Part shown: positions 50,438 through 64,000 of the stretch, one piece after another
Position numbering within the stretch: position 1 is the stretch's first letter
Layout of the letters: each line of letters starts with the position of its first letter
Assembly (NCBI GenBank): GCA_026712715.1
Contig: JAPOPW010000038.1
Span: 124,001 to 188,000 of the forward strand
DNA from: Immundisolibacterales bacterium
Lineage (GTDB): Bacteria; Pseudomonadota; Gammaproteobacteria; HK1
Length of the DNA stretch: 64,000 bases
Reading direction: 5' to 3'
Translations under genes and position numbers: made by a program
The notes under the pieces: model-generated
What the model saw: the letters and a program-made list of their open reading frames with translations, nothing else
What the model was told of the DNA's origin: nothing
Databases searched by the model: none

Positions 50438-51556
50438 TCAGGAGGGAACCGCCCCCGAAAGTACCATGAACACGTAGGCCTTGACCTTTCGAAGCTGGTC
50501 TCCGGATACGACCAGCTTGACATGATGAATTCCGCGCAGCATGACATATCGACCGGACTTCGCGAAGAGCATGGTCGGTCTCGACACCCAGTCGGCAAGC
50601 GCCGCAAGCTTCTCCGGCACCACGAGCTCTTCGTGGCTCAACGCGTTCAGGAACGGATCCCAGTCCGTGAGGCCGTCGAGCCAGTAGCGTGAATTCTTCG
50701 TATATCTCTGCTTGACGATGAGGGTGAGGCCGAGCGTCGGGCCGATACCCTCGTCGCGCACGTCGATGTTCGCCCCCAACCGGGACACCCTCACGCGTTC
50801 GTCGAAACGCGAGATCACGGACTCGACCGCCGAGGTCCGACCCGGCCAGCCCGTCTTCTCGAGATAGGCGAACAGCTCCTGCTTCGACCCGAAGCCCATG
50901 ATCGCCAATCGGATGGCCCGGGAGCGGGACGGAAACACGCCGAACGAATCCATGCGGGTACCTCCCGGCTGGGCCAGGTAAGCGCGTTCAGCGTTTTCCC
51001 GCTCGGCGACCTTCCTCTCCCACCCTACGCAGCCAACGAGGGCATCCACCACCACACCGACATCGTTCACCTGACCACGGCCGCCGACAATCGGGCGTTC
51101 GCCCGGTCGAAGGAACACTCCCGGGAACGAATGCGTGCGGTCCCGCCCCGAACCGATGTCGAACTCGAGCATCATCTTGCGGCCCACGATATTGCGCAGG
51201 GGCGAGCTCCTGGCATTCATCTGTCCGAACAGTCGAGTGATCGCCGCCGCGGTTTCGTCCGACTCGTGGTTCCGCGCGCGCCCATCGAAGAACGCCACCG
51301 TCCTGGCATCGCTCGAGAGGGAGACACCGAGATCCGCCTCCCGCCGGCGCTCGTGCAGCGGAAACTCGAAACCGAATGGAAGAGCGCCCAACGTGACCGG
51401 AAAGCCCCTCGCGCATTCCAGTATCCGTTCCCACTCCGGGTCCCCGACGAGAATCGGCGAAACCCTGTTTCGAAAGTACCCGAGCAGATCGCCGATGGTG
51501 CCGCCCTCCTCGGCGAGACGGTCCTGGGTAAGTGCCACTGCCGCGTCAGTATCCAT
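50438..51556 (-). CDS. Protein of unknown function, partner of the leader-cyclase fusion
   Basis: A 372-residue soluble protein with no signal peptide. I do not recognise a characterised family. It appears to have two similar halves of alternating strands and helices. The end is a strong candidate for a conserved core: RGIHHVKLVVSGDQLRKVKAYVFMVL. It begins 31 bases after the stop of the leader-cyclase fusion gene, so the two are almost certainly coexpressed. A prenyltransferase-like barrel is one possibility because of the repeated strand-helix pattern and the terpene-cyclase-like neighbour, but no motif proves it. Confidence 0.75.
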   Translation of the reverse strand: MDTDAAVALTQDRLAEEGGTIGDLLGYFRNRVSPILVGDPEWERILECARGFPVTLGALPFGFEFPLHERRREADLGVSLSSDARTVAFFDGRARNHESDETAAAITRLFGQMNARSSPLRNIVGRKMMLEFDIGSGRDRTHSFPGVFLRPGERPIVGGRGQVNDVGVVVDALVGCVGWERKVAERENAERAYLAQPGGTRMDSFGVFPSRSRAIRLAIMGFGSKQELFAYLEKTGWPGRTSAVESVISRFDERVRVSRLGANIDVRDEGIGPTLGLTLIVKQRYTKNSRYWLDGLTDWDPFLNALSHEELVVPEKLAALADWVSRPTMLFAKSGRYVMLRGIHHVKLVVSGDQLRKVKAYVFMVLSGAVPS

Positions 51557-51587: not shown

Positions 51588-52922
51588 TCACGCGTGACGA
51601 TCGGGCCGACTCCTCGAACCCGCCAGCATTCCGGTGAGGCGCTGAAGGGCTTCGATACAGAACGCGGAGGTCACGGATTCGGAACCATGCCCTATCTGCC
51701 CTATCGCGCCCCACCTCAGCGTCTGGTCACCAAAGGCGAGCAGCTCGGGCCAGCTTCCGTCCTCACGTTGCGAATCGACGAGCCTCTCCATTGCGCGCTT
51801 CGCGTCGATGGCTTCAAGTTTCCCGATACCGTGGAGTGCCGAAACCGCCTGAGCGGTCTGAAGGACGTTGCCGAACGCGCCGTGCCCGTCGCGCAGGGCC
51901 AGGATGCGCGCGGCAAGGAACGGGCGCAGATGATCGAGCTCGGGCCGCGAACGGACTATCGCGCGGGCGACCGCATGGCAGATCGTGACCTCATCGGGAT
52001 ACCACTTTGACGAGCCATCGAGACTCCCTTTCGATATCAACGTCTCCAGCCACCGCTGGGCATCCCTGGTTTCCGGGTGGCCGCCAAGAAAGGCAATGAC
52101 GTTCGCATTGACGACGGGATCGGCCTCGATGCGAAAGCTCGTCACGACATCAGGTTCGTCATCTTCCAACACCCAGGTCAAGAAACGACCGTCCTCGTCG
52201 CGATTTGCCAGCACTCGCGGAACGTTCCTTCCGAGCACAATCCAGGGGTGGCTTCCGATGGCAAGCGAACAGAGGGCGGTACTGTCGAGATCCTGGGGCA
52301 GATGGCGATAGTAGCGCCACAGTCCCGGGTACTCCATGGTGTCGGCAAGATATCGCCGGCTGCGTGCGCAGATGGACCCGGCCCGTTCATCATCGCAGCT
52401 CTCGAGAGCGAGCACGCAAAGCGCCGTGACAAACGCAGGCCGTTCGAAGTGTCGCGGAATGTCCGGAGCCCCCAGGTTGAACCGGATGCAGTGCCAGGCC
52501 CCATTCCCGTCGACAGCGGAATCCAGGAAAACGAGACCGCGGTGCATGCTCTCACGCGCCGCTCCTGCAAGGGTCTCCTCCGTCAAGGCGCCCACCCGTT
52601 CCTTCGACCGCATCGGGCCGGGGGATCGAGCCGCCGGTGCGGGATCGTGCATCGTCTTCTTGAGAAACTCGAGCGAGGTTGCACCGTGCTTCGCCGCCTT
52701 GCGTTCCTCCGCGCTGAACTTCTCCATCGGCGGAAGCACGATATGCGTCACGGAATCGGTTTCCTCGTGCACGCGAATCTCATGGTCCCCGGACACCGGA
52801 GATCCGAGCTCGCGTTCGATCGCGTCATTCGGATCCGCAAGGAGGCGCGCACGAAAATCGAGGTCTTCCGCCGCTCTCGCGAGGATGCGGTCCGTGGCGC
52901 CGGGGGCCGCCTTCACCGGCAT
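51588..52922 (-). CDS. NHLP-type leader fused to a terpene-cyclase/prenyltransferase-like helical domain
   Basis: A 444-residue protein with two unlike parts. Residues about 10-80 match an NHLP leader, the nitrile-hydratase-alpha-like leader of some ribosomal peptides: AAEDLDFRARLLADPNDAI, then HEIRVHEETDSVTHIVLPP and an SAEERKAAKHGA tail. NHLP leaders normally end in a double-Gly-like cleavage site; here it reads HG-A at 79-81. Residues about 110-435 look like the helical barrel of squalene cyclases and prenyltransferases: a DLDST motif at 211-215, DPVVNANVIAFLG at 268-280 and a QW-type repeat QREDGSW at 385-391. It follows the NHLM transporter genes by 134 bases. A leader on an enzyme, rather than on a short peptide, is unusual. 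Confidence 0.82.
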   Translation of the reverse strand: MPVKAAPGATDRILARAAEDLDFRARLLADPNDAIERELGSPVSGDHEIRVHEETDSVTHIVLPPMEKFSAEERKAAKHGATSLEFLKKTMHDPAPAARSPGPMRSKERVGALTEETLAGAARESMHRGLVFLDSAVDGNGAWHCIRFNLGAPDIPRHFERPAFVTALCVLALESCDDERAGSICARSRRYLADTMEYPGLWRYYRHLPQDLDSTALCSLAIGSHPWIVLGRNVPRVLANRDEDGRFLTWVLEDDEPDVVTSFRIEADPVVNANVIAFLGGHPETRDAQRWLETLISKGSLDGSSKWYPDEVTICHAVARAIVRSRPELDHLRPFLAARILALRDGHGAFGNVLQTAQAVSALHGIGKLEAIDAKRAMERLVDSQREDGSWPELLAFGDQTLRWGAIGQIGHGSESVTSAFCIEALQRLTGMLAGSRSRPDRHA

Positions 52923-53056: not shown

Positions 53057-55999
53057 TCAGGCGATTTGCCTTCGGACCAGTTCTCTGAATACTCCGTCAA
53101 CTTCCATGAGGTCGGTGAACGAGCCGCTTTGCACGACCCTTCCCGCCTGCATCACGTAAATCCGGTCAGCCTGTTCCAGCGTGGACAGTCGGTGGGCGAT
53201 CACGAGCCGGGTGGAGGTCAGGCGTGCCAGGTTCTGCATGACCTCGGCCTGACTCTCGTTGTCGAGCCAGTTGGTCGCTTCGTCAAGGAGCATGACTCGC
53301 GGGCTGCCGATGAGGGAGCGCGCGATGGTGACGCGCTGGCTCTCGCCACCGGAGACGACCGCCCCGCCGGATCCGACCATCGTCATCATGCCCATGGGCA
53401 TGGCCCTGATCTCGCGCTCGATTCCTGCCGAGCGGGCCGCCTGCCATACTTCCCCGATGCTCGCCTCCTCGTGGTGCGCGACGATATTGTCCCAGAGATC
53501 ATGGGGATGAAGCTGCACCGACTGGGGCACGGCGCCGATTTTCCGGCGCACCTGCTTCAGGTTCAGGTGCCTCAGATCGCGACCGTCGTAATAGACCGCG
53601 CCCGCCGACGGCCGATCGACCCCCAGCGCAAGGCGGAACAGTGTGCTCTTTCCGGCGCCGGACTCTCCGGCAATCGCGACGAATTCACCGGGAGCGGCCC
53701 GAATCGTGACGTCGTCGAGGATCAACGGACCGTCGGGATCGTACCGGAAGGAAACATGGTCGAAGAGAATCTCGCCGCCCAGGCGTTCCACCGTCTCTCC
53801 ACCGCCCTCGGCTTCCGGTACGGCGGCGAGCAAGGGTCGCATCTGCTCGAACGCCGGCACCATGGCGGCGACGGTGCCAAAGGACTCGCCGAGCCGGGCG
53901 ATAGCGGACTGAAAGGCGATGAACACGGCGTAGACGACGAGAAAGTCGCCGACCGGAACACTCCGGTTGCTCACCGCCGCCACCGCCAAGAGAAGCACCC
54001 CAGCGGCAAGAAACGGGAGTGAGGCGCCGAACGCCCGTGCATGACCCTCGAGTGCGCCAAGCTCGAGCTCGGCGCGCTTCTGCTCGCGATAGTGCCGTGC
54101 CCAGATGGCGAAAGCCGAACTCTCCGCATTCTCCACGCGCAGCTTGGCGATGCCGCCCACTACCTGGAACAGGTGGCCGGATACGCGTCGGCTTGCGCTG
54201 ATGATTCGTCCATTGGGTGCTCCCTGGCACAGCCCGATGGCTACGGTCACCAGCAGCGAACCCACGCTGAATGCGAGGGCGATGGCCCCGAGAGCGGCAT
54301 CGTAGAAGAAGATGACACCCAGAACCGGAAGCAGAAAGATGATCGACAACAAGCTGTCGGCCACCACTCCCTGCAGGCCATCGCGAAGATTCTGGAAGGT
54401 CATTCCCGACATGGCCAGATCGCCGGCGGGACGGCGGTGCAGAATCCTCGGTGGAAGACGCATGAGGCGGTCCCAGAAGGCGGCTTCGACCCTTGATGCC
54501 GAGCGACCCTCGAGACGCATCAACGCCGTGCCCTGGAGCAGGTGAAGCAACGCGCCGAGCAGACCGAACCCCGCGAGAGCCGCAACCACGGCATGGAGTG
54601 CATCTGCGCTTCCGCCCGCCACGACGTGATTCGCGACGAATCCAAGGGCGAGCGCCGGAAGCAACCGGGCGAGACCGCCCGGAAGCCCGGCCAATACCAG
54701 TCGTGCCAGATCCGGGGCCGAACCATGCAACGCGATTCCCAGCAGTTCCGCGGGCTTCACGCTTCCTGACGGCAATGGCCGATAGAACACCCACGCATCC
54801 TTCTTCAGCGCACGCGCGCGGTCCGCGGTGATCCGGACCCTGCGCTTGCTGACCGGATCGATCTCCCGGTAGCGTCCGAGCCCGCCCGGCAGGAGGGCAA
54901 CGGGCTGGTCGTCCTCGGCACGAAATGCGAGCATCGCGCCGCTGTCGCCGCGCCACCACCGGTCCTCGACCTCGAGATGCACGCGGCGGCCGCGCACGCA
55001 TGACGCCTCGAGAACGTCAACGATCCCGATTGGAGAATCGGAGAGTCCGGAACGGACCGGAAGCCGGAAGTCGATACCTTGGTGATGTCCGATGATCCGC
55101 AGGGCATCCGCCAGCGCGGTGTCCTCGACATGGGTCTCCCGGTCGACCGGCAGATCGTAGAGATTGAACAGCCGCTGGCGGGCGGCGCTCTCGGCCGTGC
55201 GGCGGCTGGATGTGCGAACGCGTTCGAGATTCGCATCGTCGACCATCGCAAGCCGTCGGTTCAGGCGCTCGAGAGCGAATGCGATCCCGTGAAAGGAGGC
55301 GAGCGCCGACACCAGCGTGCCCTGTTGCGCGAGGGTCCGGGTGGACCTGGTCGAAACGGTCGCGCGGACGGACAGGGAAAGCCAGCTTGTCCGCGTCAGC
55401 GGTATCGCGGCCTGGCGTGGGTCGCCGGTCCCGGCAAGCTCCGCCCGATCGATCATGTCCATGTAAAGGCTCGCGCCGCGCGCCGGTTCGGATATCCAGA
55501 CCACGCCGCGCCCCACGGACAGCGTGCAGGGGGACAGGTCCCGGGTCAGATCGGGCTCGGCCAGCGTGGCCGGTCGCGGACGGCGGTTTACGAAGCGCGA
55601 AAGCGTGTCGGTCACCGCGATCAGCCAGGAATCGACCTGGTCCGCGAGCTCCGCGGGGTCGACTTCGGACAGCAACGATGCCGGAAGGCGCTTCAGGAGG
55701 GTGCCCGGCCGCCCCTTGGCAACCAGGCTCAGCCTGGTGCCCCTTTCTTCGTCCTGTTCATCCGGCGCGACACCGGGCACCAGCCTCCCGGTTTCGCGGC
55801 GCAACAGGTGCTGTGGTGCGGCCACCTCCACCCCGTCCTTGAACTCGAGGAGGAACAGATCCACGGTGCCCTGGTCAATGAACCAGACACTGTCCGTGTC
55901 GTCGAGTCGCACGGGCAGATTGCCGGCGCACGGCACCGATTCTCCGGAGCCGGCGGCAAGCTCGGCCAGCGAAGTGCATTCCCGGCCCGGTTCGTGCAT
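53057..55999 (-). CDS. NHLM-type ABC transporter, second component
   Basis: A 980-residue ABC exporter subunit matching the second transporter of NHLM peptide-export systems. The first 350 residues are a soluble region with a cupin/cyclic-nucleotide-like start (WFIDQGTVDLFLLEF) and no peptidase. Membrane segments occupy about 430-740. The ATPase has Walker A GESGAGKST near residue 778, the signature VSGGESQRV and Walker B VMLLDEATNWLD. It is thought to work with the peptidase-bearing subunit. Its ATG overlaps the upstream stop by one base, which couples translation. Confidence 0.92.
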   Translation of the reverse strand: MHEPGRECTSLAELAAGSGESVPCAGNLPVRLDDTDSVWFIDQGTVDLFLLEFKDGVEVAAPQHLLRRETGRLVPGVAPDEQDEERGTRLSLVAKGRPGTLLKRLPASLLSEVDPAELADQVDSWLIAVTDTLSRFVNRRPRPATLAEPDLTRDLSPCTLSVGRGVVWISEPARGASLYMDMIDRAELAGTGDPRQAAIPLTRTSWLSLSVRATVSTRSTRTLAQQGTLVSALASFHGIAFALERLNRRLAMVDDANLERVRTSSRRTAESAARQRLFNLYDLPVDRETHVEDTALADALRIIGHHQGIDFRLPVRSGLSDSPIGIVDVLEASCVRGRRVHLEVEDRWWRGDSGAMLAFRAEDDQPVALLPGGLGRYREIDPVSKRRVRITADRARALKKDAWVFYRPLPSGSVKPAELLGIALHGSAPDLARLVLAGLPGGLARLLPALALGFVANHVVAGGSADALHAVVAALAGFGLLGALLHLLQGTALMRLEGRSASRVEAAFWDRLMRLPPRILHRRPAGDLAMSGMTFQNLRDGLQGVVADSLLSIIFLLPVLGVIFFYDAALGAIALAFSVGSLLVTVAIGLCQGAPNGRIISASRRVSGHLFQVVGGIAKLRVENAESSAFAIWARHYREQKRAELELGALEGHARAFGASLPFLAAGVLLLAVAAVSNRSVPVGDFLVVYAVFIAFQSAIARLGESFGTVAAMVPAFEQMRPLLAAVPEAEGGGETVERLGGEILFDHVSFRYDPDGPLILDDVTIRAAPGEFVAIAGESGAGKSTLFRLALGVDRPSAGAVYYDGRDLRHLNLKQVRRKIGAVPQSVQLHPHDLWDNIVAHHEEASIGEVWQAARSAGIEREIRAMPMGMMTMVGSGGAVVSGGESQRVTIARSLIGSPRVMLLDEATNWLDNESQAEVMQNLARLTSTRLVIAHRLSTLEQADRIYVMQAGRVVQSGSFTDLMEVDGVFRELVRRQIA

Positions 56000-58230
56000 C
56001 AGCCCGACCTGATCAGCTTGAAATACATACCGTTCCGGTCTTCTATCAGCTCGTCGTGGGTGCCGCGCTGCACTTCGACCCCGTTGTCGAGGACGATGAT
56101 CTGGTCGCAGTCCCGCACGGTGCTCAGCCGGTGCGCCACGATGAGGCAGGTGACGCCGCGACGCCGCACGGCGTCGTCGACGGATTCCTCCGTTCCGGCA
56201 TCGAGGACGCTGGTCGCTTCGTCCAGAATGAGCACGGTCGGATTTCCGACCAGGGCACGGGCGATTTCCAGCCGCTGGCGCTGACCTCCGCTGAAGTTCG
56301 CCCCGCCCTCTTCCACGAAAGCCGAATAGCCTTGCGGCGTGAGAAGGATCCCGTCATGAATGCAGGCGTCTCGCGCCGCCGCGATGATGACTTCATCCGG
56401 AACCGCCGGGTTCCACAATGTGATGTTGTCCCGCACGGATGCCGAAAACAGAACGGCCTCCTGATCCACCGTGGCAATCGAGCGCCGCAGCACCTCCTCG
56501 GGGACCTCGCTCCGCGGATGGCCGTCGAACAGTACCTCGCCCGTCCAGGGCTGGTAGATTCCCGAAACCAAGCGCGCCACGGTGGACTTGCCGGAGCCGC
56601 TCGGTCCCACCACCGCCACCCGTTGCCCCGGTCGGATCACGAGGCTGAAGTCCTTGATCAGCGGCGGCCGGCTCTTGTTGAAACCGAAGGTGACGTTTCT
56701 GAGCTCGAGCTGTCCGGCGAGTTGGAGCCGGCCATCGAACGTGGGAATCGACTCGGTCTCCGGCCTCCGCCGGCTGAAGCCCGGGTCTTCGGTCGCCCCG
56801 GAAATGTCCTCCAGCCGTTGCAGGTCCGTTTCGAGCGCCTGGCGCCGGTCCGCGAACTCGAAGAAGCGCCCGATCGGTGACAGGAACATCTCGGAGAGGA
56901 TGTAGAATCCCGCCAGCGTCCCCAGGGTCATTTCTCCCGAAATGACCATGCTCGCCCCGATGCCCAGGACCGCCGCGCCGCGAAGGGCGGCGATCAACCC
57001 CGGAAGCGCCGTGTTGACCAAGCCGAGCTCCGAGCAGACCTGGCGCGCCTGCAGCTCGCGCGCCTGCTGACCGCTCCAGCGCGAAAAAAACCGGTCATCC
57101 GACCCCGTCATGCGGAGGTTCTCCGCGTGACTCAGCATCTGCATACCGATGCCGATCAGCATGCCCTGCTCGCGCCGCATCGTCTGGCTCCGGACTGCCC
57201 GATGCGCATTGAGGAATTGCGCCAGCAGTCCGTGTAGAACCCCGAGCAGCAGCACGAGCACCGCGAGCAGAAGGTCGTAGAGCATCATCGCGACGAGCAG
57301 GACCGCGCTCATTGCCATGTCTATTACGAGCACCAGAAACTGGTCCGTCAGGTTCCTCGCGATTCGATCGATGGACGAGACCCGATCGGTCAGGTCGCCG
57401 ACCAGCCGGTGGTTGAAGAACTCCACCGGCAACCGCAACAGCCGCGACAGGCTCCGATCATGGCCAATCACCGAAATCCGGACCGCGAGTCTCCGCAGGA
57501 ACCGATGCTTGAGCAAGGACAGGAGGTAGACCAGGATGCCGCCGCCAATCAAGGCCGCCACCAGCCCGCCCCAGGTTCCGTGCGCCTCGAGGACGTTGTC
57601 CACGAAGACGCCAAGAGATGCGGGCACGAGCAATGCCAGCAACGTCGACATGAGCGCGCAGGCGACCGCCGCTCCAAGCACCGTCCATGACCCGCCGAGC
57701 AACGAGTGCAGGCGCGCGAACAACCCGGGTCGCTCGCCGCCGGGCTTGAAGTCGGCGCCTCGCTTGAATCGAAGCGCAACTCCACTGTAGCCCTTGGCGA
57801 ATTCTTCGGCGCTGACCCTGCGTCGCCCCGTCGAGGGATCATTGAGAAAGAAGCTCCGGCCATCGATCCCTTCGACGACCACGAAGTGGCTGAACTGCCA
57901 GAACACGATCAGCGGCAACGCGAGCTTCTCCAACAGATCCGCTCTAACGCCGAGTCCGCTGCACTCGAGGCCGTAGAGCCTCGATGCGCGCACGAGGCTC
58001 GCGGCGCTGCTGCCGTCCCGGCTCACCTCGCACCTCTCGCGCAGCTCGGTAAGCGGCACCCAGCGCCCGAAATAGCCAAGCACGATGCCCAGACAGGCCG
58101 CACCGCACTCCGCCGCGTGCGTCTGCAACAGAATTGGCGTGGTTACCCTTCGCTTCAAGGGCTCCGCCGCCGCCTTGTCGCCGGCCCGATTGGAGGCGCT
58201 CGGCCGCACCTTACGGTCGCCTGGTTCCAA
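55999..58230 (-). CDS. NHLM-type ABC transporter with C39 peptidase domain
   Basis: A 743-residue peptidase-containing exporter. The C39 domain at the N-terminus has Gln36 and Cys42 (LLQTHAAECGAAC), His115 (QFSHFVVVEG) and Asp131 (LNDPSTG), so the protease looks intact. Six membrane segments follow, then an ATPase with GPSGSGKST, FSGGQRQR and VLILDEATSVLD. Such proteins remove double-Gly-type leaders and export the product. The start overlaps the HlyD-like gene by 20 bases. The NHLP-type leader encoded two genes downstream is its likely substrate. Confidence 0.94.
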   Translation of the reverse strand: MEPGDRKVRPSASNRAGDKAAAEPLKRRVTTPILLQTHAAECGAACLGIVLGYFGRWVPLTELRERCEVSRDGSSAASLVRASRLYGLECSGLGVRADLLEKLALPLIVFWQFSHFVVVEGIDGRSFFLNDPSTGRRRVSAEEFAKGYSGVALRFKRGADFKPGGERPGLFARLHSLLGGSWTVLGAAVACALMSTLLALLVPASLGVFVDNVLEAHGTWGGLVAALIGGGILVYLLSLLKHRFLRRLAVRISVIGHDRSLSRLLRLPVEFFNHRLVGDLTDRVSSIDRIARNLTDQFLVLVIDMAMSAVLLVAMMLYDLLLAVLVLLLGVLHGLLAQFLNAHRAVRSQTMRREQGMLIGIGMQMLSHAENLRMTGSDDRFFSRWSGQQARELQARQVCSELGLVNTALPGLIAALRGAAVLGIGASMVISGEMTLGTLAGFYILSEMFLSPIGRFFEFADRRQALETDLQRLEDISGATEDPGFSRRRPETESIPTFDGRLQLAGQLELRNVTFGFNKSRPPLIKDFSLVIRPGQRVAVVGPSGSGKSTVARLVSGIYQPWTGEVLFDGHPRSEVPEEVLRRSIATVDQEAVLFSASVRDNITLWNPAVPDEVIIAAARDACIHDGILLTPQGYSAFVEEGGANFSGGQRQRLEIARALVGNPTVLILDEATSVLDAGTEESVDDAVRRRGVTCLIVAHRLSTVRDCDQIIVLDNGVEVQRGTHDELIEDRNGMYFKLIRSG

Positions 58231-58762
58231 ATAGCGCGATCGGGGCCTGTCTTCCGAGCTCGATGAAGATCCGGGCCTTCCTGTCGGGGAGGGAACCCGG
58301 CTCGAGTCCCTCGTCGAGCGCGATATCGAGGCGGAACACCGACCCCCCGGCCGCGGTCGCGAAGTCCGCCACTCCCCTGGACAGGTTCACCGCGGATATT
58401 GCGGCCACCCTCCCCTCGAGTGTCTCCGGCTTTCCCTCGGCCATCGTCAGGTCGATCGCCGCCGGCATGCCCTCGTCAATTTTCGGCGCAGCGGCGCCCC
58501 TGAGCCAGATGATTGCCCGCACCGTCGGGAAGCCGTCGCCCGGGCCGTCGCGAAGCTCCACGAGCACTCCATCGACGGCAACGCTGCGCGGGACGCTGCC
58601 AACGTACAGCCACCCGGCAAGGACGACCAACAACGATGCGATGCCGACGACCAGAAAGCGCTCTCGAGGTGTGGAAACGGTCAACAGCCCGTCGAGCCGC
58701 TCTCGCTCTTCCTTGGCCGCGGCAACCGTGTCGTGAAACGATCCGAAGGGATTATTGAACAT
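58211..58762 (-). CDS. Truncated HlyD-like membrane-fusion protein (NHLM type)
   Basis: A 183-residue protein. Residues 19-75 match the start of NHLM HlyD proteins: ERERLDGLLTVSTPRERF, a single membrane helix (36-55) and SVPRSVAVDGVLVEL. The later part resembles only the membrane-proximal beta-barrel (RAIIWLRGAAAPKIDEG, VSAVNLS-like). The roughly 200-residue coiled-coil hairpin and lipoyl segments expected of HlyD are missing, and the frame runs through without a visible break. A working short adaptor is possible, because C39 exporters may need contact with the pump but not with TolC. Confidence 0.82.
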   Translation of the reverse strand: MFNNPFGSFHDTVAAAKEERERLDGLLTVSTPRERFLVVGIASLLVVLAGWLYVGSVPRSVAVDGVLVELRDGPGDGFPTVRAIIWLRGAAAPKIDEGMPAAIDLTMAEGKPETLEGRVAAISAVNLSRGVADFATAAGGSVFRLDIALDEGLEPGSLPDRKARIFIELGRQAPIALFGTRRP

Positions 58763-58899: not shown

Positions 58900-61278
58900 T
58901 CATGCCGGGAGCTCGACTTGCGGCCCGGAACGTCGGTCCACCGCGGTCAGCAGGGCGGGCAGAAGCAGCAGATCGGCGACGAGCGCGAAGGCGATGATCA
59001 TTGCCGTCAACACCCCGACCTGCGCGGTCGGAACGAACGGAGAAAACGCGAATATCAGGAAGCCGGCCACCAGCACGACCGTCGTGGCAAGAAGGGCGCG
59101 GCCGGCGGAGTCAAAGGCGTGACGCACCGCCTCTTCGGGACCGTGGCCGTAGTCGCGCCGTGCGAGCTGGTACTTGCTCAGGAAATGCACGGTGTCATCC
59201 ACGACGATACCGATGGTCATTGCCACCACGACAGAAAGCGAGAGCCCGACCTGCCCGACCATCAACCCCCAGATCCCGAACCCCAACACGGCGGGGATCA
59301 GGTTCGGGACGATGCTGATCAAGCCGAGGCGAATTGAACGCAAGGCAAGGAGAAGAACGCCGGAAATGGCCAGGAGCACGACCATCGTCCCGATCAGCAT
59401 GGCGCGGATGTTGCGTTGCCCGATGTAGGCGAACAATGCCGCCGGACCGGTGCTGTTGACACTGGCAACATGCGGCGCGTTTTCTTTCAGCCAGGCTTCG
59501 GCACGCGCGTTCAGCGCGAGCAGCTCTTGCGAGTCGAGGGTCTTCGCCGAGATCGTTACCCGCGTCGCGGATCTGGACCGATCGATCTGATTGTTCAGGT
59601 TCAGACCTTGAGGAAGGGATAGCTCGTAAAGGAGCAGGTATTGCGCCGCCAGCTCCCGACTCTCGGGAATGCGGTACGAAGCCTCGTCGTCGCCATGCAT
59701 GCTCTTGTTGATCTGCCTGAAGGTATCGCTGATGACCGCCACGTGCCGTACGGGAGGCTGCTCACGGTACCATTCGGCGAAACTCGAGACCTCGGCGAGA
59801 AAATCGGGATCGGTGACGCCGCCCTCGGTGGACGCTTCAAGCGAGTACTCGAGCAGGGTGTTGCCGCTCAAGCGCTCATCCATGAAGTCCGTGTCCTGGC
59901 GAAACTCCACGCTCTCGTCGAAGAAGTGAACCAGAACGTCGTTGAGCTCGTTGCGCGGAATGGCAAGGGCCATCGCCAGCACTACGGCCAGCCACCCCCA
60001 GATCAGCGGCCTTCGGTTGCGCAGCACGAAGTCCGCCACGAGCACCATCGTGGGTCCGCGGAGCCGGCGATCCCTTGGCGTGCGAATCGGGAGTAGTGAC
60101 AGCAGGGCCGGCAGGAACGTGACGGAAAGAACGAAGGAAGCAACGATGCCGATTGCGACGAAGTTGCCCAGGTGGCGGTAGGGCGGAACTTCCGAGAAAT
60201 TCATGCTCAGGAACCCCAGCGCGGTCGTGAGGCTCGCCAGGAACACCGGGTACAGGTTGAGCCTGACGGACTCGACGATGGCGTCGTGCCGCGTATCCCC
60301 TTCACGCATGCGCTGCTGCAAGGTCACCAGCAGGTGGACGCAGTTCGCCACGACGATCATCAACACGATGGTCGGAGCCGGCGAGATGGGTGGGGAAAAC
60401 GGCAAGCCGATCCATGCGCCCAGGCCCACGGACACGAGAATGGAACAGACGATGACCGTGCCGGTCGCGACGACCCCCGGCCAGCCACGGGTAACCAGGC
60501 CAAGGACCAGCGCCATGAGCAGAAGGCTTGCGGGCAGGAAGACAATCTGGCTGTCGATCGAAGCCTCGACGAAGGTCTGGTTGACCATCGTCGTACCGAC
60601 GATGCGAACGTCCAGGTCGGGGAATCGCTCTTCGGTCTCGGCGGCAAGCGACCTGGCGAACTCGGCAACTTCGGCGACCGCCTCCAGCAGACCCTCCTCC
60701 GGCAGCTCGACGGTGACATTCACGACGCTGACATCGCCGTCCCTGGCCACAATGCTGCCCTCGATGCGAGGGTCGGACAATGCGACGGCACGAATTCGCG
60801 CGCGCGCTTCGTCCCGGTCCAGCTCTTCGGGACTGACGAGATCGCGCACATGCAGCTCGTCGCCGTCCGCCGTCGTGTATTGAAAATTGGCGAGCGAGTC
60901 GACGCGCCTGGAATACGGCGTGTGCCAAGCGGCCTCCGTGAGCCAGACGGATGCCCCGAGCGCAGTCTGCGACGTGGCGTCGCCGTCATCCGGAACGATC
61001 AGGAACGCGACGTTCTCGTTCTTCCCGTAGGTATTCTCCAGCGCTTCCAGGGCGAGAAGCTGCGGATTGTCCTCGTCGAAGAAGATTCGGTAATTGGCCG
61101 AGAACTCGAGAAAGGCAATCCCGGACGACGCGACGGCAACCAACAGCAGCATTGCCGTGATGACCGGCCAGCGGGCCGAGAGCATCCGTTCGGCAAAACG
61201 CGCGGAGAATTGCTCTCCCGCTATGCCGCGCTGGTGCACAGTGCCGGAGTCACGGTTCTTGTACGACCACAGGGGCAA
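58900..61278 (-). CDS. RND/MMPL-family exporter (HAE3-like)
   Basis: A 792-residue protein with two matching halves, each with a periplasmic domain and several membrane segments. The second half has GIVVDDTVHFLSKYQ, typical of the MMPL/HAE3 group, and the first has VVANCVHLLVTLQQ at the same place. It is shorter than AcrB-type pumps and usually moves lipids, sterols, pigments or similar hydrophobic compounds. It sits between the halogenase-like gene and the NHLM export genes. Several ATG and TTG codons before residue 40 make the exact start uncertain. Confidence 0.9.
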   Translation of the reverse strand: MPLWSYKNRDSGTVHQRGIAGEQFSARFAERMLSARWPVITAMLLLVAVASSGIAFLEFSANYRIFFDEDNPQLLALEALENTYGKNENVAFLIVPDDGDATSQTALGASVWLTEAAWHTPYSRRVDSLANFQYTTADGDELHVRDLVSPEELDRDEARARIRAVALSDPRIEGSIVARDGDVSVVNVTVELPEEGLLEAVAEVAEFARSLAAETEERFPDLDVRIVGTTMVNQTFVEASIDSQIVFLPASLLLMALVLGLVTRGWPGVVATGTVIVCSILVSVGLGAWIGLPFSPPISPAPTIVLMIVVANCVHLLVTLQQRMREGDTRHDAIVESVRLNLYPVFLASLTTALGFLSMNFSEVPPYRHLGNFVAIGIVASFVLSVTFLPALLSLLPIRTPRDRRLRGPTMVLVADFVLRNRRPLIWGWLAVVLAMALAIPRNELNDVLVHFFDESVEFRQDTDFMDERLSGNTLLEYSLEASTEGGVTDPDFLAEVSSFAEWYREQPPVRHVAVISDTFRQINKSMHGDDEASYRIPESRELAAQYLLLYELSLPQGLNLNNQIDRSRSATRVTISAKTLDSQELLALNARAEAWLKENAPHVASVNSTGPAALFAYIGQRNIRAMLIGTMVVLLAISGVLLLALRSIRLGLISIVPNLIPAVLGFGIWGLMVGQVGLSLSVVVAMTIGIVVDDTVHFLSKYQLARRDYGHGPEEAVRHAFDSAGRALLATTVVLVAGFLIFAFSPFVPTAQVGVLTAMIIAFALVADLLLLPALLTAVDRRSGPQVELPA

Positions 61279-61669
61279 GCGGCTCGCCGGATTTCACTGT
61301 ATTGCCAGTCTGGGAGCGCGTTCACCACGATGAAGCAGTGCGAATTGTACCTGGATCGCCCTTCGCAACCGAAAGCGGCGCGGTGGCACCGTGCGTCGCA
61401 AGGTGGCGAGCTCATCGACAATGGAGCCGTTCGGTGGGACGCGCCGCACGCGAATCCTCTCCTGCGCTTCCCTGGAGGGTCGAAGAATACCATGGCCATG
61501 TTCCATCCGGATCCACCGTCACGCTGGAACCTGCGCACTTGCACGGGCACGGAGCACGCGACCCCGCGAGCCCCGCGCTTCCTTGAAATCGGGTAGTCGG
61601 GCCGGGGATTGCGCGCGGTCGGTATTGCCATTGCAGGTGAGCTGTCCGCGCGACGCGCCCGGACCGTGG
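61279..61669. other. Gap between the halogenase-like gene and the RND exporter gene
   Basis: About 390 bases without a convincing gene. Open frames on both strands (for example minus 61221-61724) have no recognisable domain and read like antisense. It probably holds a promoter for the RND-HlyD-ABC block. A small peptide gene below the detection limit cannot be excluded. Confidence 0.5.
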
Positions 61670-62944
61670 CTAGTATCCAAGACCCTGAGACATCTGGGCA
61701 TAGCTGGTGAGAGGAACCGCGCACATCCGGTTCCAGTCCGACCTGTCGATGACCGGCCGTTTCAGCAGCTCGATCATTGCATTGAACTTCTCGAGCGCGG
61801 AGCAGCCCACCACCTCCGGATCGGCGGCCGCACGGTGCCGCGGCCAGGCGTGGTGCCGCGCGTAACGCCAGAACTCGCTGTCGTACCGGGATCCGCAGGA
61901 ATAGTGCCAGCCGACGAACAGTCCGTAGCAGAGCATGCTTCCGACCAGGAACCGATTGACCACCGGGGCATCGCTATCGAGGTTCTTCACCGAACGGTTG
62001 AGGCGCATGTGGAGAATCATGCCGATCTGGAGCTGGGCGGACACGATCGCCGTAGCTTCGAGGGGTTCCATGAACGCCGCTGCGTTGCCAACACGCGCCA
62101 CCGCGCCATCGAAGATTCGACGTTGCACGAAATTGGGAAACGGAACGGTGGCGCGCGGCTCGAATTCCCTGACGCCGTCGGCTTCCAGGAATGCATCGAA
62201 GTCCGATTCGACCTCGGCGAGGCTGGATACATCGCGGTTGAAGATGTACCCGTAGGAAGTATGCACGGCAAGCGGAATGACGAAAATCCAGCCGTGCGGA
62301 CGCGCAACTGCCCGCGTATAGGTATGCTGCACCAGGGTCCGGTTCTTTTCGCCCCCGACTATTGGCGGGCAGCGTCGGATGACGGCGGTATTCGTGGGAA
62401 TGAAGGAAATGTCGATGTGCCGGTCGGGATCGAGCTTTGCCGGAAACCCGCGGGCATCGAAGACCAGGTCATACCGTTCCGACGCCCGGCCCTCGAATTC
62501 CACTTGCGCCCCGCCCTGCACCCTCGTGATATCCAGCACCTTCGCATCGATGTGGCGCGCGCGCGTGCTCTCCTGAAGCAGGCCGGCCAGACAATCGGCG
62601 GACAGGTGGTAGGCGTAGGACACCTGTTGGGGTGTGAAGTAGTGGGTGAAGCGCCAATTGCGCCGACCCCATCCTTCGAATGCAACACCGTACTTGCGCG
62701 TCCCCTCCAGGCGCTGCTGAATGGTCTCGTGGGGAAGCTTGGTCAGTTTGTGGAGCTCCTGAACCAGGCTCGGCCAGCTACCCTCGCCCACTCCGATTAC
62801 CGGGATGCGCGAGTCATAGATGTGGTGCAGCTCGTGGTCGCGGTCAGGGAGAAGACGCGTTACGCTGGCGGCGGCAATGGAACCTGCGGTCCCCCGCCCG
62901 ACCACCGCGATCTTCCGCAAGGACTCGCTGCCCGGCAGGATCAT
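61670..62944 (-). CDS. Flavin-dependent tryptophan-halogenase-like protein
   Basis: A 424-residue flavoprotein related to tryptophan halogenases. FAD binding appears as GRGTAG (16-21) and GVGEGSWPSL. Lys84 (TRKYGVAFEGW) and Glu296 (FMEPLEATAI) match the catalytic Lys79 and Glu346 of PrnA. The diagnostic W-x-W-x-I-P is altered: GWIFVIP keeps the first Trp and the Ile-Pro, but the second Trp is Phe221. It is about 100 residues shorter than PrnA, mainly before residue 200. Halogenation is plausible but not assured; another FAD-dependent oxidation is the alternative. It is encoded beside an exporter and an outer-membrane protein. Confidence 0.82.
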   Translation of the reverse strand: MILPGSESLRKIAVVGRGTAGSIAAASVTRLLPDRDHELHHIYDSRIPVIGVGEGSWPSLVQELHKLTKLPHETIQQRLEGTRKYGVAFEGWGRRNWRFTHYFTPQQVSYAYHLSADCLAGLLQESTRARHIDAKVLDITRVQGGAQVEFEGRASERYDLVFDARGFPAKLDPDRHIDISFIPTNTAVIRRCPPIVGGEKNRTLVQHTYTRAVARPHGWIFVIPLAVHTSYGYIFNRDVSSLAEVESDFDAFLEADGVREFEPRATVPFPNFVQRRIFDGAVARVGNAAAFMEPLEATAIVSAQLQIGMILHMRLNRSVKNLDSDAPVVNRFLVGSMLCYGLFVGWHYSCGSRYDSEFWRYARHHAWPRHRAAADPEVVGCSALEKFNAMIELLKRPVIDRSDWNRMCAVPLTSYAQMSQGLGY

Positions 62945-63032
62945 CTCTCATGACCTCCAGCATGTCGGTCGAGTGCCAGCTCCCGAACCACTCGTCACTT
63001 GAAGATGCCCTCGCCGCCAGCGCCGGGCGACA

Positions 63033-64000
63033 TCAGAAGCTGAACGTGAAATCAACGCCGAGGAAGCTGTCGCGCCGGCCGCCGTAGGTCGGGTCCCTCG
63101 GGTCCGAGCTCAGAGTCGCGCTCGCTTCCAGGCGCAACAGCCAGCGATTCGAAAGGCGGCGCCTGAGCTCCAGGTTCAACGCGCGGTATTCGTGGCGGAG
63201 GTCCCCCAGGAGGCCCGCCACGATCTCGGTTCCCGGCAGATCGTTCAACGCGAGGACGCCCGCGGCATACACGTCGTTCGCCCTGACATTGGTGGCACGG
63301 CGCCCGCGGCCATCGAAGTGCCACTCCGCGAAGGCGGTCAAGTCCGCGCGGGTTCCGAACACGCCATAGAGAGTGCGCTCGAAGCCGAAGATTACTGCGC
63401 AGAAATCCTCCTCTTCGCCCAGGAGATTGCGCGATCCGCCGCGGCACATGCCTTCCGTCTTGTAGAGCCAGGGCTCGGTCGTGAGCTGTGCGTCGATCCC
63501 GAGCTGCCATATCTGCTCGTAGTACGGGGTCAACGGCGCTTCGACGGCCGGGGACCGCTCGGAATGGTGGCCGAAGAGAAACAACGGTTCGCGGCTCGTT
63601 CCGGCAAAGGCGCTCACGCCGAAATCGAGCAATCCCACGGCGTTGCCGTAGCGAGCCGCGAGATCCACATGGCGCTCCTTCGCACCGCTCTCGTACCGGG
63701 GGTTCTCATCGATCGGCCGGCCGGACCGGTGCCGCCCGGATTGCCCGGGAAACGTTCGCTTGCGATGAAACGGTAGAACAAGCGTCTCGGCAATGCCCCA
63801 ATCGCCGCCAATCGTCAGACGCGCCATGGGCTGGCCCAGCTTCGGCCGATCCCGCGGATGCGCCACGAGGTCCGATTGATTGACGATGTCCACGAGGTTG
63901 TCGAGCTCGGCCACACCCCAGAAAACGCGATCGACACCCAGCCGAAGCTCCCAGGAATTCTCGCCCCAGTCTCCATGCATCAAGACGTAGGCCTCGCGCA
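63033..64000 (-). CDS. Outer-membrane beta-barrel protein (DUF1302/porin-like), N-terminus outside the window
   Basis: The 3' part of a gene that continues past position 64000. Visible residues start ELRLGVDRVFWGVAELDNLVDIVNQSD after a short leader, a stretch typical of DUF1302-type outer-membrane proteins (strand, then VFWG and DN). Alternating hydrophobic and polar strands continue, with acidic and aromatic loops, and the protein ends in GVDFTFSF, whose terminal Phe is the usual signal for outer-membrane assembly. Such proteins accompany RND/MMPL exporters in many lipid or pigment export clusters. The stop lies 88 bases before the halogenase-like gene. Confidence 0.75.
   Translation of the reverse strand, partial: REAYVLMHGDWGENSWELRLGVDRVFWGVAELDNLVDIVNQSDLVAHPRDRPKLGQPMARLTIGGDWGIAETLVLPFHRKRTFPGQSGRHRSGRPIDENPRYESGAKERHVDLAARYGNAVGLLDFGVSAFAGTSREPLFLFGHHSERSPAVEAPLTPYYEQIWQLGIDAQLTTEPWLYKTEGMCRGGSRNLLGEEEDFCAVIFGFERTLYGVFGTRADLTAFAEWHFDGRGRRATNVRANDVYAAGVLALNDLPGTEIVAGLLGDLRHEYRALNLELRRRLSNRWLLRLEASATLSSDPRDPTYGGRRDSFLGVDFTFSF

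Follow-up and report, generated by a model that had tools for sequence, protein, structure and literature searches.

What would a bacterium make from a locus in which a halogenase gene, an RND/MMPL transporter gene and an outer-membrane protein gene stand next to an NHLM system, an exporter type otherwise associated with ribosomal peptides? The locus in question lies in a 64,000-base window of an Immundisolibacterales (Gammaproteobacteria) genome, G000, that is, positions 124001-188000 of contig C9 (G000:C9:124001-188000); the contig is 190,099 bases long, and an additional 2,099 bases are readable past the window edge. A first-pass annotation had placed these genes correctly, with family matches found for the RND/MMPL, Trp_halogenase, outer-membrane and NHLM genes, and had proposed a combined pathway to a halogenated, possibly terpenoid product. 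Judged from its sequences, the locus is an srp-family proteusin cluster, a known kind, in a gammaproteobacterial genome, and its product is probably a brominated, prenylated and cyclised indole-terpenoid thiazoline peptide. The srp cluster, the bromination and the azolines are known; what we add is the proposed combination of terpene chemistry with them in srp proteusins.

The relevant genes are listed below, with positions past the window edge given in the coordinates of the locus record L008 (window position = L008 position + 48000).

50438..51556, minus strand: p1, ABBA/DMATS-fold prenyltransferase by its fold model, predicted to prenylate the core Trp, 372 residues
51588..52922, minus strand: p2, NHLP leader domain (about residues 1-80) followed by a predicted class II terpene cyclase (about residues 112-439), 444 residues
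53057..55999, minus strand: NHLM ABC2-type exporter subunit (TIGR03797, 677 bits, cut-off 709)
55999..58230, minus strand: NHLM ABC1-type exporter with C39 leader peptidase (TIGR03796, 821 bits, cut-off 853; PF03412, E 4e-33)
58211..58762, minus strand: short HlyD-like subunit, 183 residues (TIGR03794, 25 bits, model positions 6-54 of 421)
58900..61278, minus strand: MMPL/HAE3-type RND transporter, accessory, start codon uncertain (PF03176, E 3e-32; TIGR00921)
61670..62944, minus strand: SrpI-type flavin-dependent peptidyl-Trp halogenase, predicted 6-brominase (PF04820, E 2e-43)
63033..64000 and past the edge to about L008:16,300, minus strand: outer-membrane protein (DUF1302/porin match weak, E 7e-4, below cut-off, whole open reading frame)
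L008:16262-17185, minus strand: LolA_like protein (PF17131, E 5e-58)
L008:17329-17580, minus strand: NHLP precursor with LCCCW core (TIGR03793, 60.9 bits, cut-off 50.9)
L019:9019-11628, on contig C64 (G000:C64): desaturase/hydroxylase protein (DES), 869 residues (PF00487, E 1e-25)

Extending the sequence beyond position 64000, as the first-pass annotation had suggested, revealed on the same strand the LolA_like gene and, upstream of it and 5' of the halogenase gene, the precursor gene, which had been missed together with the prenyltransferase-fold gene and the leader-cyclase fusion. The precursor has 83 residues, with an NHLP (proteusin) leader that scores above the TIGR03793 cut-off and the C-terminal end AISAG-LCCCW. 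Precursors beside halogenase homologues in several phyla share the SAGLCCCW ending without exception (42 of 42 complete sequences), and in the same 42 the SrpI interaction motif, at positions -12 to -7, reads I/L-TEEQ-L. LCCCW is also the published core of SrpE: the YcaO enzyme SrpC converts its Cys residues to thiazolines, and SrpI, which depends on the leader, places a bromine on C6 of the indole of its C-terminal Trp (PMC10286304; PMC10858898). SrpI catalysis depends on Lys84 (PMC10858898), and the window halogenase, compared with SrpI by published residue number, has Lys at position 84; this residue, the flavin motif with G16/G18/G21, and E293-P294-L295-E296 are kept in 81 of 81 sequences. 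The LCCCW core and the halogenase Lys84 therefore identify the cluster as srp. Homology to SrpI further suggests that the halogenase modifies the ribosomal peptide itself and implies no separate pigment or lipid pathway. The first-pass annotation had pointed out that pairs of halogenase and RND exporter are known from halogenated pigment or lipid clusters, but the RND, LolA and outer-membrane genes are not diagnostic. A separate set of NHLP matches on contig C50 was rejected as a RiPP (ribosomally synthesized and post-translationally modified peptide) precursor, the frame, with VCTLCSC, reading as a nitrile-hydratase alpha-like protein; we take VCTLCSC to be the motif of such proteins.

The YcaO gene occurs as a single copy in the genome, at the end of contig C64, where it terminates 187 bases before the contig end. 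It encodes the fused cyclodehydratase type with a leader-binding domain (TIGR03604, 272 bits; TIGR03882, 124 bits; both above cut-off). Because a relative, G004, carries the same genes in the unbroken order DES-YcaO-precursor-LolA-OMP-HAL-MMPL-HlyD-ABC1-ABC2-p2-p1 (OMP, outer-membrane protein; HAL, halogenase), C64 and C9 are probably the two sides of one assembly gap. DES joins an FA_desaturase domain to a GlnE-like region (PF03710, E 4e-5, slightly below cut-off), and all 14 sequences aligned retain its three His clusters (GHE..HR, EH...HH, QRH.DHH); these presumably resemble the clusters of AlkB-type hydroxylases. The DES gene adjoins the YcaO gene and is present in 40 of 80 srp loci. We considered the GlnE-like C-terminus as a nucleotidyltransferase and dropped this reading, since the acidic motif that we take to be typical of GlnE is not preserved in the alignment.

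To place these genes among relatives, we scanned the contigs of a genome collection covering 84,980 species with the halogenase and used the best 80 of 188 relatives (74-84% identity). Counts per 80 loci refer to flanks of at most 10 kb, with protein matches under fixed identity thresholds dropped. Alignments A4 and A5 contain nearly full-length, stop-free proteins, the window's own included (34 p2 and 32 p1 sequences, respectively); A6 covers 21 of the 34, and A7 has 14 sequences, 13 from the 34 full-length loci and one from our own. The relatives are metagenome-assembled genomes (MAGs) labelled Pseudomonadota, Acidobacteriota, Gemmatimonadota, Latescibacterota, Nitrospinota, Nitrospirota, Myxococcota and Binatota; a sponge (Spongia) is named in the record of one of them, and the host is unstated in most others. 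A halogenase relative was not found on viral contigs in the scan. In 59 of the 80 loci, no more than about 10 kb separates the halogenase from NHLM genes, so the two gene groups, far from always being separate in relatives, are mostly together. This co-occurrence and the LCCCW precursor 5' of the halogenase in this genome support the proposed combined pathway. The remaining genes were counted as follows: precursor 43, YcaO 46, p1 39, p2 47, DES 40, ABC1 51, ABC2 54, HlyD 44, LolA 31, OMP 31 and MMPL 15. There were 48 distinct gene orders among the loci, contig ends counted, and a quick tree of the halogenase required 12 label changes vs. a minimum possible 7, for example with Gemmatimonadota placed within Latescibacterota and a Latescibacterota row next to an Acidobacteriota row (L043, a 3,120-base contig that could be misbinned). 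In three loci (L087, L100, L103; Silicimonas, Boseongicola), the srp halogenase stands without the remaining cluster genes within the flanks.

The p1 protein is assigned by structure. Its AlphaFold2 model, built from 32 sequences (pLDDT 85.3, pTM 0.86), shows five bb-aa repeats, and the order of its elements is that of an ABBA barrel, with ten antiparallel strands in five abba repeats. Foldseek (best E 6e-6) gave only ABBA/DMATS enzymes among the 50 matches listed; VIA placed MpnD on top (Z 16.8, rmsd 4.5, 304 aligned), with CymD at 16.1, and again the 50 matches listed were all prenyltransferases. The best structural matches are indole/Trp prenyltransferases. Hence, by fold, p1 is predicted to be an ABBA (DMATS-type) prenyltransferase, and we infer its reaction from that fold.

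For p2, the VIA comparison points to a class II toroid, matching AsDMS (Z 26.8, rmsd 2.7, 286 aligned) and MstE (Z 22.6). Its acid motif DLDS is the same in all 34 members and aligns with the DLDTT of AsDMS (DLNTT in the chain of the D333N mutant); it is of the DxDD type, with the catalytic middle Asp in place. The N-terminal domain matches TIGR03793 in every one of the 34, the window protein scoring 39 bits against a cut-off of 50.9, and aligns with the precursor leader without gaps, apart from an N-terminal extension of two residues in the window copy. Among 369 genomes of the class, a p2 relative turned up in 2, our own included. Together, the p1 prenyltransferase fold and the p2 cyclase support in outline the earlier suggestion of a halogenated, possibly terpenoid product.

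Relatives of both genes also appear in more divergent clusters. In G016:C77 (L125, 15001-35000, about 9.9-12.4 kb), a precursor with core GG-SNDDFDASGW shares its strand with genes for a stand-alone cyclase (39%) and a p1 homologue (29%), with an NHLM exporter present and no match to an srp-type halogenase or YcaO. A second proteusin cluster of G004 (G004:C87; L124, 45001-65000) combines core AG-WCCCGN with a p1 homologue (48%), two methyltransferases, MMPL and NHLM genes. In G084:C55 (L109, 12001-32000, about 6.1-11.9 kb), next to core GG-VCWSNCSDMGP, a cyclase gene (hhalign E 8e-23) overlaps that of a 351-residue remote p1 relative, and radical SAM, DUF2332 and sulfotransferase genes are carried as well. 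G016:C187 has core GG-YCSISCCW with a 72% halogenase, YcaO and NHLM genes. Finally, G016:C215 (L127, 1-20000) has the Trp-free core AG-RCCCCF beside NHLM genes, and neither p1 nor the halogenase was found within 20 kb, the locus being at a contig edge. In this small sample of few genomes, prenyltransferase-like and cyclase genes thus recur beside Trp-containing proteusin cores.

The pathway that we propose runs as follows. The precursor, with its NHLP leader and LCCCW core, would be modified in a leader-guided manner: the YcaO cyclodehydratase would convert the three Cys to thiazolines, the halogenase would brominate the C-terminal Trp, p1 probably prenylates the Trp indole, and p2 probably cyclises the attached chain through protonation at DLDS, as NctPC does with fused domains; the desaturase/hydroxylase beside YcaO may oxidise the chain. 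The C39/NHLM ABC exporter would then cleave at SAG|LCCCW and export the product, assisted by the accessory RND/LolA/outer-membrane set. Homology to published enzymes supports the precursor, core, azoline and bromination steps, and prenylation is predicted at Trp because it is the sole aromatic residue of the core.

Several observations weigh against this proposal. YcaO is on another contig, and the join is inferred, as the C9 and C64 ends do not overlap and have no common 17-mer. The p1 sequence matched no ABBA or other curated family in Pfam and NCBIfam and no PDB sequence at E <= 10, so that its assignment depends on an AlphaFold2 model at 8-13% identity to the best matches, a missing family match being no disproof; the model of p2 is moderate overall (pLDDT 73.0). 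The G016:C187 cluster has no p1 or p2 match on its contig, and the p1 relative of G084:C55 is weak (E 5e-5, probability 67). In addition, all 34 p2 leaders carry Arg74 where L(X)4L has its -7 Leu, and the srp chemistry in the accessible text of PMC10286304 and PMC10858898 consists of azolines and bromination alone. These last two points would fit a cluster that makes only a brominated trithiazoline peptide, with p1, p2 and DES inactive, serving as leader-binding scaffolds or acting elsewhere: the SrpC azolines and SrpI bromination are the sole steps described in what those sources give, and p2 retains the leader nucleus, not L(X)4L. We consider this explanation unlikely, though it deserves more weight than any other competitor, given that p1, p2 and DES are in 39, 47 and 40 of the 80 loci, that the catalytic motifs of p2 and DES are invariant, and that prenyltransferase and cyclase relatives co-occur again beside other Trp-bearing proteusin cores.

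It is also conceivable that p2 and DES make a free terpenoid or hopanoid-like membrane lipid, which an HpnN-like RND protein exports, the peptide pathway merely neighbouring. The RND protein indeed scores with both the HpnN and HAE3 models, and the cyclase is in the squalene-hopene cyclase (SHC) superfamily. However, p2 bears a proteusin leader in every member, solved SHC chains have about 630 residues whereas p2 is one toroid, like MstE, and most clusters outside the proteobacteria that retain p2 have no RND, LolA or outer-membrane genes nearby, all of which makes this reading very improbable. That a halogenated pigment or lipid cluster adjoins, by chance, an NHLM RiPP cluster unrelated to it is hardly credible and already contradicted by the relatives: even though the exporter trio also stands alone in the same genome (C29), the halogenase is of the SrpI type, and halogenase, LCCCW precursor, NHLM, YcaO, p1 and p2 genes travel together over several phyla in shuffled order. 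We favor the brominated, prenylated and cyclised thiazoline peptide.

The role of the leader fused to p2 is a separate matter. SrpI reads the L(X)4L leader motif, whereas a YcaO also reads the folded nucleus (PMC12455567); because the former motif is lost in p2, our guess is that the fused leader acts as a docking domain. More specifically, and more doubtfully than the product class itself, the brominated polycyclic indole-terpenoid proteusin might arise on a multi-enzyme complex assembled on a decoy leader, with the L(X)4L-less leader of p2 docking the cyclase on nucleus-readers such as the YcaO RRE domain.

The export genes are less distinctive. The ABC1, ABC2 and HlyD proteins find NHLM families as best matches by far, yet they stay under the NCBIfam cut-offs (821/853, 677/709 and 25/156 bits, respectively), and we call the set NHLM-like. 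The HlyD-like subunit is under half the usual length and comparably short in relatives. Of the 37 Alpha, Gamma, 'delta' and Binatia loci with 2.6 kb or more of upstream sequence, 28 have LolA close to the halogenase, compared with 0 of 36 other loci, where it may be more distant. An MMPL-LolA-OMP trio without halogenase stands elsewhere in the genome (L129, G000:C29:22001-38000, 4.9-9.2 kb). Because LolA is lineage-limited and this halogenase-free trio exists, the RND/LolA/outer-membrane set is a general envelope module borrowed by the proteobacterial versions, accessory rather than diagnostic.

The first-pass annotation had also noted that all genes from 50.4 kb to the edge lie on one strand. 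This is the case, the minus strand being used throughout from 50438 to the window edge and onward through LolA_like and the precursor, but the uniformity is only local: among the 59 loci with both, the halogenase and the NHLM ABC genes are on the same strand in 31 and on opposite strands in 28. A scan of L008:2000-18099 gave no promoter vs. 1.9 expected in shuffles and six terminator-like sites vs. 10.7 expected; no operon boundary follows from the scan. GC content per 2-kb bin is 0.637-0.667 from 50 kb onward vs. 0.654-0.713 before, which is compatible with an acquired island but no proof of one.

The srp product is still cryptic, PMC10286304 and PMC10858898 giving, in their accessible text, enzyme reactions and no isolated natural product. 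If our model is correct, sponge metabolomes are screened for the wrong mass when a brominated trithiazoline pentapeptide is the target, and producing only SrpC and SrpI yields an intermediate. Further, proteusins would join the RiPPs with polycyclic isoprenoids, and p2 would provide a naturally occurring case of permanent fusion between an enzyme and a RiPP leader, in a pathway with a five-residue core that does not vary across several phyla.

How does the cluster compare with known systems? A 2021 JACS paper on srp by Nguyen, Agarwal, Schmidt and colleagues reportedly describes the cluster, in its title, as widespread in sponge microbiomes. The window cluster has in common with the srp clusters (SrpE, SrpC, SrpI) the NHLP precursor, the identical LCCCW, YcaO, the leader-dependent Lys84 Trp brominase and the wide MAG spread; no difference excludes identity, and the reading of p1, p2 and DES is added here. 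In the limited collection searched, we found no literature naming a terpene cyclase in srp, and the 2021 authors may already have annotated p1, p2 or DES. With the NHLM systems (TIGR03794/03796/03797; PMC2887384), it has in common the C39-ABC1, ABC2 and HlyD-like set and an NHLP precursor, but its three genes score under the curated cut-offs and its HlyD is less than half length. AsDMS drimenol synthase (9m7f, 9mhs) and MstE (6sbc) have the class II fold and DxD acid motif in common with p2; AsDMS bears a HAD phosphatase and MstE is single-domain, whereas p2 bears the NHLP leader domain. NctPC, according to a review (PMC13290415), unites an ABBA prenyltransferase and an MstE-like cyclase in one protein, which first attaches a geranylgeranyl group to Trp and then closes the chain into rings. 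NctPC-type RiPPs thus have in common with our cluster an ABBA prenyltransferase and an MstE-like class II cyclase on Trp, here the Trp of the LCCCW core; in contrast to their single polypeptide, two genes (50438-51556 and 51588-52922) are found here, the cyclase carries a proteusin leader of its own, and bromination and azolines are predicted in addition. The mpp lanthipeptide cluster of Moorena (MppC, MppD, MppI; PMC11791876, PMC12715784) likewise unites in one RiPP cluster a brominase, a leader-dependent ABBA-type Trp geranyltransferase and a terpene synthase gene, but on a Nif11 leader and lanthionine core as opposed to NHLP and azolines. The proposed prenylation and cyclisation chemistry therefore has precedent in NctPC and mpp.

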